Of a stretch of 64,000 nucleotides of DNA, positions 33,123-37,309 are shown piece by piece (the stretch's first letter is position 1; every line of letters begins with the position of its first letter). The stretch is from the NCBI RefSeq assembly GCF_002088935.1, contig NZ_NCSS01000006.1, positions 248,001 through 312,000 on the forward strand, in the 5' to 3' direction. Source of the DNA: Henriciella litoralis (GTDB lineage: Bacteria; Pseudomonadota; Alphaproteobacteria; Caulobacterales; Hyphomonadaceae). The notes below the pieces were generated by a model. It did no database searches and had not been told where the DNA came from. It saw only the letters and a list, made by a program, of their open reading frames with translations. Both the position numbers and the translations under genes were made by a program.

Positions 33123-33357
33123 ATGCTGCGTCGGTTTAATGCGCGCCGTTTCAAATCGCAAAGACCAAATGAAGTACGCTCAGTAACATCAAACTTGCGA
33201 ACTTGTCTGCCTCGGCAGATGCGGCCCAAGCGGGCGTCTTGGCGCCAGCTATTCACCGCGAGGTGATCGAAGCGCTTATCATAAAGACTTAAACCTAACT
33301 TGCTTTTGCTTTCGAAGACTTGGAATATTGCGTGCTTATTTCGGGGCAGGGGGCTGC

Positions 33358-35694
33358 ATGAGAAACGGGAACTGGAGAAAGATCACTGATCTCTACCTGC
33401 AACTTCTGGAGGTGCCAGAATCAGATCGCGCAGCCCACCTCGACCGCCTGGCTCTTGCCGAAGAAGAGAAGACAGCGCTGAGCCGCCTGCTTGTCGCAAA
33501 TACGCAGGATGCAGATTTTTTCGCCACCGGCGGGGCCATCGAACATCACCTTCAATTTCTCAATGCAGGCGAGACGCTCGGCAGCTGGCGCATTCTAGAG
33601 ATGATCGGTGCCGGTGGAATGGGCGAGGTGTACCGTGTTGAGCGGGCCGACGGGCATTACAATCAGATCGCTGCACTCAAGCGCATCACTCTCTCGGATG
33701 AGGCCGCCTTCGCGCGCTTTGAACGTGAGCGCCAGATCCTCGCCCGGCTGGAGCATCCGAATATCGGCCGTCTGATCGATGGCGGGGTAGATGACAAGGG
33801 CGCTCCCTATTTTGTGATGGAGCTCATCGAAGGTCAGACCCTGCTTGACTATGCGAAGGGCCGCAGGCTGAACCGGGAGCAGATTCTTCAACTCTTTCTG
33901 AAAGTCTGTAGCGCACTTTCCCATGCTCATGGGCGCTTTGTGCTGCACCGGGACCTGAAGCCCACCAACATCATGGTCAACACCAGCGGAGAGGTGAAGG
34001 TCATCGATTTTGGCGTTGCCGGTCTGGTCGAGCAAGGCGATCAGGACCTTCGTGCGCCGATGACCCTTCAATATGCCGCCCCTGAACAGCTTGATGGTCG
34101 CGAGTCTTCTGTTCAGACGGATATTTTCAGCCTCGGCCTGACCCTCGCGGAGTTATTGACGGCCGATGCGCCAGCCGCCCTTGATCCCGGCAACCGAGTC
34201 AGGCTGGACGGGCTGCCCGCAGATCTCGCGGCCATCCTGAAAAAGGCGACCGACCCGGATGTGTCCGAACGCTATGAGAGTGTCGATGCGCTGGCATCCG
34301 ATATTCGGAACTTCCGTACACATCGTCCCGTCATGGCCAGACACCCGAACACGCTTTACAAAGGCGTCCTGTTCATGCGCCGCAACGTGATGGCGGTCGG
34401 CTTGGTTTGCGTATTGTGTGCAGGCTTTGTCGGCGTCAGCTGGCAATATGTGAAGGCTGAGCGCGAGCGGGATGTTGCCCTACACGAACGCGAACGGCTG
34501 AGGACAATGCAGGCTGCGACCTTCCTCATGTTCTCCGAGGCAGGGAATGGCGGTGGCGAGAAGACGGCCGGGTCCCTGATCCTGAAGGCGGCCGAGCAGG
34601 CCAAAGCCGACTTTGAATCGGACCCTGAAAAGGCGGCCCCTGTGCTTCAGATGTTCGGGGAAATGCTCTTTCTGATCAATGATTACACCTCGGCTGAGCC
34701 ATTGCTTCGGTTGGTTTCGGACCTCCCGGTCAAATCCGGCAATGAAGACATGATCGCTCGGGCCTCGCATGATCTCGCGAATGTCTACTTGCGGTCCGGC
34801 AAGGTGGAGCAGGCAGGAGGGGCGCTTGAGCGCGCGCTGGAGATCTGGAAATCCGATCCGGCACAGTATCATGATCAGATTCTGGGGGCCGCGCTGATCG
34901 AGTCGCAGCTGATGGCCGAAACTGGGGATCTTGAACAGGCCGAAGCCCTTTTGTCCGAAAGCCTTCCCCGACGTATCGCCTTTTCGGGCGAAACATCGCT
35001 GGAGACGGCCATACTCCTCACAAATATCGGTGTTGCCCGGATGCGGCTCGGCAATATTGAGGGGGCGCTCAGAAGTTCTGAGCGGGCCCGTGATGTTTTT
35101 AACGCGATCGAGCGCCTCGATACTCCTGATGGCCTTAATGCGATGAACAATCTCGCAACTCTCTATCATATCAGTGGCCGACTGGAGGAGGCTGAAGCGG
35201 CCTATCTGGCGACGCTGGATATCCGCCAGAAGCTCTACGGCCCGTCCACGGCGCTCGCTGTGCTTATGTCCAACTATGGAAAGCTGAAACTGCAGCAGGA
35301 AAAAACTGCTGAAGCTGCTCTCCTGCTGTCCAACGCCGTCGAAATGGCGGACGAGTTCAGCGGAGCGTCTAGCCCGGCGGCTCTTGCGGCACGTTTCGGC
35401 CTGATCGAAGCACTCGCCAATTCCGAGCAGATCGAAGAGGCGGAGGCCGTACTGACCGATGTCAGCATCAGCCTCAATGATGCCGGCATAACCAGCGGCG
35501 CTTATATGGGCCTTTTTTATGTGGCCAGCGCACAGGTTGCAGCTGCGAAGGGCGACCCTTCGGCAGCGCTTGCGTCACTCGATGCTGCGGATCAGTTTTT
35601 TGCGGAGATGGGAGCGCCTGCAGCGCGGTATGCCGCCAAGGCACAACAGGTGCGCGACAGTCTCAATCAGGATGTGGCTGGTACACCCCTCTGA
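33358..35694 (+). CDS. Membrane Ser/Thr protein kinase with TPR sensor domain
   Basis: 778 residues. Cytosolic kinase domain at about 78-322: P-loop GAGGMGEV 84-91, Lys108, catalytic HRDLKPTN 197-204, DFG 217-219, APE 241-243, all intact, so it should be active. One TM helix at about 344-361, then a coiled segment and many TPR units to the end, probably periplasmic. The N-terminal 70 residues (WRKITDLYLQLLEVPESDRAAHLDRL) are the kind found in kinases paired with ECF43 sigma factors, but no sigma gene is adjacent. The ATG after CAGGGGG is chosen. It heads a same-strand set of three genes. Confidence 0.88.
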   Translation: MRNGNWRKITDLYLQLLEVPESDRAAHLDRLALAEEEKTALSRLLVANTQDADFFATGGAIEHHLQFLNAGETLGSWRILEMIGAGGMGEVYRVERADGHYNQIAALKRITLSDEAAFARFERERQILARLEHPNIGRLIDGGVDDKGAPYFVMELIEGQTLLDYAKGRRLNREQILQLFLKVCSALSHAHGRFVLHRDLKPTNIMVNTSGEVKVIDFGVAGLVEQGDQDLRAPMTLQYAAPEQLDGRESSVQTDIFSLGLTLAELLTADAPAALDPGNRVRLDGLPADLAAILKKATDPDVSERYESVDALASDIRNFRTHRPVMARHPNTLYKGVLFMRRNVMAVGLVCVLCAGFVGVSWQYVKAERERDVALHERERLRTMQAATFLMFSEAGNGGGEKTAGSLILKAAEQAKADFESDPEKAAPVLQMFGEMLFLINDYTSAEPLLRLVSDLPVKSGNEDMIARASHDLANVYLRSGKVEQAGGALERALEIWKSDPAQYHDQILGAALIESQLMAETGDLEQAEALLSESLPRRIAFSGETSLETAILLTNIGVARMRLGNIEGALRSSERARDVFNAIERLDTPDGLNAMNNLATLYHISGRLEEAEAAYLATLDIRQKLYGPSTALAVLMSNYGKLKLQQEKTAEAALLLSNAVEMADEFSGASSPAALAARFGLIEALANSEQIEEAEAVLTDVSISLNDAGITSGAYMGLFYVASAQVAAAKGDPSAALASLDAADQFFAEMGAPAARYAAKAQQVRDSLNQDVAGTPL

Positions 35695-35825: not shown

Positions 35826-36383
35826 ATGAAAAAACACATCCGTAAGAGCCTTGTTGTCGGCAGTGCCATGATGGCTCTCGGTGCCGCGCACGCGCACGCG
35901 CAGGTACAGGTCGAACAGATCGGCACAGTGTCGATTAGTCTGTGCGATGCAGGGGTCCTCACGAAACTCAGCGGAGATGACCTTCGTGCCGCACTGATCA
36001 AAAATCTCCGGATCAAGCCCGGCAGGGGCGTTGAGGAAGGCCGACTTTACATGGCCAGGATCGAGGACGGTAAGGTCAGGGATATTTTTGTTTCCGAGAC
36101 TTTTTCGGCCGCTCCCAAAAAAGGTAGCGAGGCCGGTTTCTTCCCCGGCGACATGTACTTTCCGGGCGATATGTATTTCCCTGGCGATATGTATTTTCCC
36201 GGGGACGTCTACTTTCCGGGCGACATGTATTATCCGGAAAAAGAGCGTAAAAGCGCTGTTAAAAAGGCAGCGGAGGCATCCTTCGTTCGAGCGTCCCAAA
36301 AAGATGGCTGGTTCTTTATCGTCATCGCGGAGAAGGGGATGGCGCAAGCCTCCGGTATGACCGTGGCTTCAAAGGGAAAGTGA
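35826..36383 (+). CDS. Secreted protein with five tandem FPGDMY hexapeptide repeats
   Basis: 185 residues; no family recognised. A signal peptide (MKKHIRKSLVVGSAMMALGA, cut after AHAHA) precedes a small domain at about 27-100 (VEQIGTVSISLCDAG ... RLYMARIEDGKVRDIFVSE). Residues 106-135 are five exact-phase hexapeptides FPGDMY (fourth unit FPGDVY), then YPE and a C-terminal part with Lys-rich and WFFIVIAEKG segments. GAAGGT lies 8 nt before the ATG. Its stop overlaps the next gene's GTG start, so the two are translationally coupled. It is probably periplasmic; role unknown. Confidence 0.8.
   Translation: MKKHIRKSLVVGSAMMALGAAHAHAQVQVEQIGTVSISLCDAGVLTKLSGDDLRAALIKNLRIKPGRGVEEGRLYMARIEDGKVRDIFVSETFSAAPKKGSEAGFFPGDMYFPGDMYFPGDMYFPGDVYFPGDMYYPEKERKSAVKKAAEASFVRASQKDGWFFIVIAEKGMAQASGMTVASKGK
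36141..36230 (+). repeat. Five 18-bp in-frame tandem repeats (FPGDMY)
   Basis: Five contiguous 18-bp units, each TTY-CCN-GGN-GAY-RTS-TAY. The units differ at third codon positions, but only one amino acid changes (Met to Val in unit four). Conservation is therefore at protein level. Confidence 0.95.
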
Positions 36384-37309
36384 CCCTGCACGCTGTTATC
36401 ATGGGCGCGGGGCTTGCCGGACTTTCGGTGGCCCTGCGCCTAAGGCAGATCGGTCTTGACCTGACAGTGCTGGACCGGCGTGAGCGGACCACATCGCCGG
36501 TCTCTCACTCTTTCGCGCATCGCCTCTCACGCGATACGTTGCGGGGCATCCTCTCCGACCCTCTCGTTGATCTGGCCATTCCGGTCTTTCCGCATCGCCT
36601 GTCCGTCCTCTTGCTGGAGAAGCTGGCAGCTGAGGGGATCTCGCCGCAGTATCAGGCCCCGGTCCAACATGTCGACTGGTCCCGCAGAGCGCTCATGGTT
36701 GGCGGCGAGGAACAGACATTTGATCTTCTCATCGACGCCACGGGGGCCGCCCGCGCCGGTCTGCGCCGTCTTCCCGGCGATACAGAAGTGACAATCGAAG
36801 CGATCGATCAGGCGTCGATCACTTATGCCATCGAGCTGCAACGCTCTGGCAATCTGCATCCGAAATCAGGCCTGTCCCGCGTCGGCGATGTGGGCCTGGC
36901 ATGCCTCTTCGATGAGAGCGACGCCTGCCTGACGGCCGGCATGAGAGGGCGTACGGCACGGACGCCCGAGGCGCTTTGCCAGATTGCAGATATGGTGTTC
37001 GGGGCGCGCCTTGTGCCAGTAAGCCCTGAAACCGTCAGGACATATGCGTTTCGTGAAATGACTCGGCTCATTCTCGATGGCCCTGACGATCTGTCTTTCG
37101 TCTCCATAGGCGATGCGCTTCTGCAGACCGATCCGGTCTTCGGCATGGGTCTGCAATCCCTGGCGATGCAGCTTGATGTTATCGAAGCCTATTTCTCAGG
37201 AGCCGATACGCCGTGCGAGTCCTGGCAAGTGCTCCGCGAGGAGATGGAGTCCGCTGTTCTACCCATCTGGCAGGGCCAAGTTTTTGCCGGAGCGCTCCAG
37301 GCCGGGTGA
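36380..37309 (+). CDS. Short FAD-dependent monooxygenase-like protein
   Basis: 309 residues, shorter than the usual 370-400 of class A flavoprotein monooxygenases. N-terminal FAD dinucleotide motif GAGLAGLSVALRL (9-21) followed by the acidic VLDRRE; second FAD motif SIGDALLQTDPVFGMGLQS near 255-273. LIDATGAARAGLR lies between. There is no NADPH-site DG motif that I can see with confidence. GTG start inside a GTGA overlap with the hexapeptide-repeat gene. Substrate unknown; the coupling suggests it acts in the same process as the upstream gene. Confidence 0.78.
   Translation: MTLHAVIMGAGLAGLSVALRLRQIGLDLTVLDRRERTTSPVSHSFAHRLSRDTLRGILSDPLVDLAIPVFPHRLSVLLLEKLAAEGISPQYQAPVQHVDWSRRALMVGGEEQTFDLLIDATGAARAGLRRLPGDTEVTIEAIDQASITYAIELQRSGNLHPKSGLSRVGDVGLACLFDESDACLTAGMRGRTARTPEALCQIADMVFGARLVPVSPETVRTYAFREMTRLILDGPDDLSFVSIGDALLQTDPVFGMGLQSLAMQLDVIEAYFSGADTPCESWQVLREEMESAVLPIWQGQVFAGALQAG

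Follow-up and report, generated by a model that had tools for sequence, protein, structure and literature searches.

A selectively maintained array of FPGDMY hexads in a rare family of presumably exported proteins, encoded beside a predicted flavin monooxygenase and a kinase-TPR gene in Henriciella litoralis

The window, i.e. the whole stretch of 64,000 nucleotides of Henriciella litoralis DNA that was analysed, contains a gene for a repeat protein of 185 amino acids (35826-36383, + strand, stop codon included), which was taken from the list of open reading frames and is matched in frame by its homologues. A gene whose product was recognised by Pfam as a Ser/Thr kinase with C-terminal TPR repeats (33328-35694, + strand) lies 131 bases upstream, and the repeat gene is overlapped by four bases (GTGA) by a gene for a 309-residue protein resembling PHBH-type flavin monooxygenases (36380-37309, + strand). 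The repeat protein is laid out as a presumed signal sequence (residues 1-25, 35826-35900, + strand; read by eye, with a guessed cleavage site), about 80 further residues, five tandem hexads and a final stretch of about 50 residues. These hexads (36141-36230, + strand) read FPGDMY three times, followed by FPGDVY and FPGDMY, and were established with Tandem Repeats Finder and by comparison of the units. In the whole 64 kb, Tandem Repeats Finder reported a single array (36147-36237, period 18, 5.1 copies, 76% matches). The hexads stay in frame in homologues of the window protein, and the fivefold FPGDMY repeat that a preliminary description of this DNA had reported was confirmed at its position and in frame within the 185-residue reading frame.

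The hexad units of the window protein are old and under selection at the peptide level. All five units are distinct in DNA, and relative to their consensus they carry 12 substitutions, a single one of which is nonsynonymous and changes Met to Val, as had been remarked from the many differences at third codon positions. Random placement of the same substitutions (20,000 draws) gave on average 9.2 residue changes and never fewer than 4. Divergence among the units of the window array amounted to pS = 1.00 and pN = 0.041, most of the 20 arrays measured agree (pooled pS 0.729, pN 0.020; the window and 17 loci, with short or interrupted arrays such as those of L019, L028, L031, L032 and L037 excluded), and the initial argument for purifying selection over recent slippage is thus supported. 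Synonymous variation among the window units was 0.60 compared to 0.57 expected from local codon usage, and in 16 of 19 arrays it deviated by no more than two standard deviations from randomly drawn codons, those of L020, L022 and L030 (3/19) varying less than expected. Given the saturation of synonymous sites and the nearly fixed peptide, most hexad units are old, and selection maintains their peptide sequence. The two arrays of L030 (Lujinxingia) are almost identical in DNA, and a recent duplication is therefore possible for these two. Synonymous diversification beyond expectation, as a means of avoiding recombination, was considered as well and was unsupported (mean z -0.75).

Relatives of the repeat protein are rare and form an undescribed family. 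Pfam, NCBIfam and PDB searches with the window protein returned only matches far below cut-off or with E-values of 0.03-1, in agreement with the earlier remark that no described family with this motif is known, and Pfam gave only weak matches for 16 family members (TAT_signal in 4/16). A pattern scan of genome contigs yielded 80 matching stretches, 27 of which were confirmed as loci by tblastn. Besides the window, a family profile free of hexads matched 16 of the 27 (L015-L029, L035); as the profile was built from 16 of its 17 matches, all of them except L026 match by construction. The remaining 11 scan loci gave no match to it at E <= 10. Together with L073, L074 and L081, the 17 matches make up a family of 20 members with three to seven hexads per protein; no assigned family was hit and hexads are present in 20/20 members, so the preliminary description stands in this respect. 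Nineteen members are alphaproteobacterial, including a MAG labelled Pseudomonadota (L023) that was counted as such by its placement in the tree; the taxa comprise Sphingomonadales, Caulobacterales, Hyphomonadaceae, Maricaulis, Rhodobacterales, Pelagibacterium, the Pseudomonadota MAG and a gammaproteobacterial Spongiibacteraceae MAG. Searches with the repeat protein found matches in 6/101 near genomes (two of them weak) and in 4/105 genomes of the window's taxonomic family. Three orders contained matches in 3/296, 10/298 and 2/341 genomes, respectively, six of the ten in the second order being hexad-type proteins outside the 20 members. A 26-position hexad profile, which scores the window at E = 1.6e-12, produced two matches at E <= 0.001 among 387 alphaproteobacterial genomes, i.e. 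the window's own protein and a weak one without the motif. L083 and L084, which matched weakly and are without the motif, were dropped.

The proposed secretion of the protein, based on the presumed signal sequence read by eye, is in line with a twin-arginine pair in 16/20 members in the reading frame used, and in one more, L026, when its alternative frame is read; the starts of the window protein, L024 and L029, likewise read by eye, are without a clear twin-arginine pair. An AlphaFold2 model of the repeat protein based on 16 sequences (mean pLDDT 67.4, pTM 0.62) had pLDDT values <50 at residues 1-31 and 113-136, the latter stretch in the region of the hexad array, with strands and helices flanking the array on either side. 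The array is thus predicted to be a disordered loop that separates one half of a small, in part confidently modelled alpha/beta domain from the other. Foldseek searches with this flanking domain gave no match at E <= 0.001, and VIA-align 2 gave middling Z-scores (best 6.6) and no convincing fold match, so that no fold is assigned. Left-handed beta-helix hexapeptide proteins share the period of six residues and a hydrophobic first position with the array, but differ from the five units found here, which are predicted as disordered (pLDDT <50), and Pfam models of hexapeptide families had no match in the window protein or the 16 members. Elastin-like and glutenin-like repeats form beta-turn spirals or self-associating strands, and the repeated PG turns might likewise act as a structural element for adhesion or assembly, with flavoenzyme and kinase being functionally unrelated. 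The regularity of the PG turns with aromatic residues on their flanks fits such a role, as do the ten copies in one Lujinxingia protein, and an assembled state may escape single-chain prediction. However, members with only three to seven units, a predicted disordered array and partner genes that a structural role does not predict make it distinctly unlikely.

The hexads follow the consensus [FI]-P-G-[D/E/N/Q]-x-[F/L/Y]. Over 29 arrays of our choice, residue frequencies were 1.00 for P, 0.99 for G and 0.80 for D, and position 5 was mostly occupied by M (0.61), H (0.13) or N (0.11), the share of Met being inflated because the scan patterns demanded M or N there. Residues seen were D, E, N, Q, S or P at position 4 and M, H, N, S, I, A, D or V at position 5. 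This variability gives no support to the early guess of a metal-binding element: Asp and Met are the commonest residues at the two positions and could act as ligands, but N, Q, S or P are allowed at position 4 and I, A, N, S or V at position 5, and we regard metal binding by the units as highly improbable.

The 11 scan loci outside the family hold hexads in otherwise unrelated proteins. They comprise the Lujinxingia protein (L030), which has a beta-helix match and ten copies of FPGDMF, arranged in two blocks of five, five loci of Bacteroidota (L031, L034, L037, L039, L041), Rhodohalobacter (L036, two genes), a Clostridiales MAG (L032), Marinimicrobium (L033), an Anaerolineales MAG (L038) and Mameliella (L040). 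Homology between the window family and an FPGDHF-type family (L075-L078, L080, L036) is only suggestive from profile comparison (hhalign E 0.0097, probability 4%). The sole archaeal case seen is a plasmid gene of Natrinema halophilum (L055:7323-9455) with a lipoprotein-like start and many hexads of the FPGDTW/FPGDAL type. Viral contigs contained 17 pattern stretches and no relatives. Further tblastn matches of 31-46% identity on plasmids and phages (Borreliella, Enterococcus, Staphylococcus and others) were put down to low-complexity sequence of period six; the records inspected were those of Natrinema and Borreliella, and the Borreliella match is located on the strand opposite its annotated genes. 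Among six motif strings searched in literature texts, only IPGDMF was matched, once, in a 2004 article on surface-protein repeats (PMC2447325). Shorter strings led to no paper on the hexad motif as far as titles tell, and no literature on hexapeptide repeats in Alphaproteobacteria was found.

The product of the downstream gene (36380-37309) is predicted to be a PHBH-type (class A) flavin monooxygenase. The Gly-rich FAD-binding motif (G9, G11, G14) and the GD motif (G244-D245) are invariant in 11/11 aligned flavoenzymes, 9/11 contain the Pfam domain FAD_binding_3, and the model (pLDDT 80.0, pTM 0.82) has a PHBH-type fold, with Lsd18, MonCI, KMO and PHBH at Z 24-28. The epoxidases Lsd18/LasC and MonCI are the nearest solved folds and align with the whole model (Z ~28, rmsd 2.7-3.2, 304-307 residues), but they share only ~18-20% identity with the window enzyme, which is shorter, and their substrates are small molecules. 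Profile matches were found to QhpG (5.7e-11) and MICAL1 (2.8e-7, FAD-binding half only). Against the QhpG equivalog NF049967 of NCBIfam, the window enzyme scored 34 bits, below the cut-off of 240, and Pfam identified only FAD/NAD-binding families in its 309 residues and no CH or LIM domain. MICAL performs S-oxidation of actin methionine. It offers a parallel as a flavin monooxygenase acting on protein Met that matches the window enzyme in profile searches, but the match is limited to the FAD-binding half, and MICAL proteins are eukaryotic and have extra domains. The QhpG/QhpC pair, as presented in the accessible part of PMC7876137, combines a flavin monooxygenase of the same broad fold with an adjacent substrate gene, and QhpG modifies its peptide in the cytoplasm before the latter is exported; it hydroxylates one Trp, whereas the candidate residue here is a repeated Met. 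Equal units, a signal sequence and an adjacent flavoenzyme gene would also be in keeping with a precursor of released hexapeptides, with the flavoenzyme as tailoring enzyme. The units abut, though, with no evident cleavage site between them, and the flanks are conserved as a domain, which renders a precursor very improbable.

A relative of the flavoenzyme is encoded directly downstream of the repeat gene in 15/20 members (window, L015-L023, L026, L027, L073, L074, L081), those of L074 and L081 having lower scores (94 and 90 bits). No flavoenzyme gene is located beside the repeat gene in L024, L025, L028, L029 and L035, and whole-genome searches at E <= 1e-10 revealed no full-length relative in these five genomes (nothing in four, a partial match of 1.2e-13 in that of L025). 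Most hexads have Met at position 5 in 15/15 members with the flavoenzyme gene and in 0/5 without it, enzyme-less L024 having Met in 1/6 hexads. This association is significant in Fisher tests uncorrected for descent (6e-5; 2e-4 when thinned to 11 vs 5). The best tree requires five changes (4-5 in bootstraps), at least two of them forced on well-supported branches, and the window pairs with L024 at 87/80. When descent is allowed for, the match comes down to two independent pairs on supported branches and is not significant (sign test, p 0.5). The long-branch rows L024, L025, L028 and L029 are uncertain in their placement, and all four lack the enzyme. A scan for M or N at position 5, which could miss members with other residues there, found no family member with Met-majority hexads but without the enzyme. 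Outside the family, Met hexads occur in 9/11 scan loci, and the genomes of these nine contain no full-length relative of the enzyme (a partial match of 4.8e-12 in that of L031). No methionine sulfoxide reductase motif was found near the loci, save one chance-like string.

The upstream kinase of the window (Pkinase 1.2e-42, TPR_12 3.6e-24) contains a hydrophobic stretch that was interpreted by eye as one membrane helix. Kinase domain, one membrane helix and C-terminal TPR repeats are also features of ECF43-linked kinases such as PknS (PMC13147305, PMC8999054), and an ECF43-type sigma factor adjoins the kinase in most linked hexad relatives; in contrast, the window is without the sigma factor, and the accessible text on the PknS type mentions no adjacent hexad protein. 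Kinases of the window type are located within 8 kb of 13/26 loci, while 0.16 would be expected from copy number and genome size (9/19 vs 0.13 after thinning by our own judgement). The 26 loci are the 20 family members, five of the FPGDHF/FPTDTF type (L075-L078, L080) and L079; inclusion of the excluded hexad loci L033, L040 and L082, all without such a kinase, gives 13/29, and kinases might have been missed in L016, L019, L021, L023 and L077, which extend less than 8 kb on a side. This linkage occurs in several gene orders. An ECF43-type sigma gene is found near 11/13 kinase-linked loci; L024 has a partial match truncated at the end of the locus, and the 64-kb window has none. The three other such kinases of the window genome have Sigma70_ECF genes nearby. 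At the genome level, a high-scoring kinase is present in 3/3 repeat genomes of Sphingomonadales (of 296) compared to 4/294 genomes overall (Fisher 1e-6), and in the window's family in 3/4 repeat genomes compared to 10/105 genomes (Fisher 0.002). In H. aquimarina, which has both the repeat gene and the flavoenzyme gene, there is no such kinase nearby, and 32 further kinase stretches, chosen for having no known linked hexad gene, contained no hexads by the pattern test. In other phyla, a kinase gene adjoins the hexad gene in L030 (FGE domain, no TPR match), L031 (a fragment, with an ECF43-type gene) and L038 (AAA and TPR), where chance adjacency is not small given 56 first-look kinase candidates per genome in L031, 118 in L038 and 129 in L030. 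A CHAT-TPR protein and a sigma factor are encoded near the hexad gene in L034 and L041. These two loci of Bacteroidota (L034:3390-7710, L041:2-3953; Pfam check for L034) have in common the CHAT-TPR protein, a small TPR-bearing protein and the ECF sigma factor.

Kinase-ECF43 pairs without hexads adjoin assorted other proteins with signal-like starts. The repeat protein might hence be just one of several exported products of the kinase-sigma module, with a task in the envelope and no role as ligand, but this would leave the Met-flavoenzyme match and the linkage in several gene orders unexplained, and we consider it unlikely. We tentatively favour an exported multivalent peptide display that is part of a kinase-sigma signalling module, with its Met as target or docking site for the flavoenzyme. 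The small alpha/beta domain would hold a flexible loop bearing three to seven copies of a short linear motif and, with several equal copies on the loop, one molecule would offer a partner many docking sites; on balance, the hexads are probably recognised as such a multivalent motif. The flavin monooxygenase would act on them in the cytoplasm before export, the Met at position 5 being the likeliest target (S-oxidation, MICAL-like) or docking residue, and this action of the enzyme on the hexads is conceivable, albeit rather uncertain. In most members, export would proceed via the twin-arginine pathway, which carries folded proteins. Beyond the inner membrane, the array would be either a ligand or an output of the adjacent receptor kinase, with the TPR region as its likeliest reader, although we deem such reading doubtful. 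In relatives of the window, the kinase would activate the adjoining ECF43-type sigma factor by phosphorylation; activation of ECF43 factors, among them one of Hyphomonas neptunium, by a neighbouring kinase is described in the accessible part of PMC8999054.

Across several bacterial phyla and in a haloarchaeon, the motif is preserved at the peptide level in otherwise unrelated proteins, which suggests a recognition system absent from the searched family libraries. The hexad array is a candidate ligand for ECF43-linked TPR receptor kinases: PknS has a periplasmic TPR region, and its activating signal was deferred to future work, according to the accessible text of PMC13147305. Likewise, the flavin enzyme may act on protein methionine, and the hexad Met is a candidate for its substrate. 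A far-reaching version, which we see as a long shot, is that FPGDxF is a reused exported recognition motif of prokaryotes and that, in this family, a dedicated flavoenzyme oxidises every repeat Met prior to Tat export, with the outward-facing kinase reading the oxidation state. If true, this would be a MICAL-like, protein-directed redox signal in bacteria.

Several minor observations were made at the loci. Members of a small lipoprotein family are repeatedly encoded next to the kinase-ECF43 pair (L017:9846-10523, L026:12838-13644, L085, L104, L105, L106). In the genome of L081, a different contig carries a second gene of the hexad type (IPGDTF; L082:7995-8507), with no such flavoenzyme or kinase nearby. 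In Rhodohalobacter, two related genes are arranged in tandem (L036:7623-9073), one with FPGDHF/FPGDNF and the other with IPGDAF hexads. Finally, the gammaproteobacterial hexad gene is neighboured by a gene (L035:6301-7905) for a 535-residue protein with many imperfect tandem repeats.
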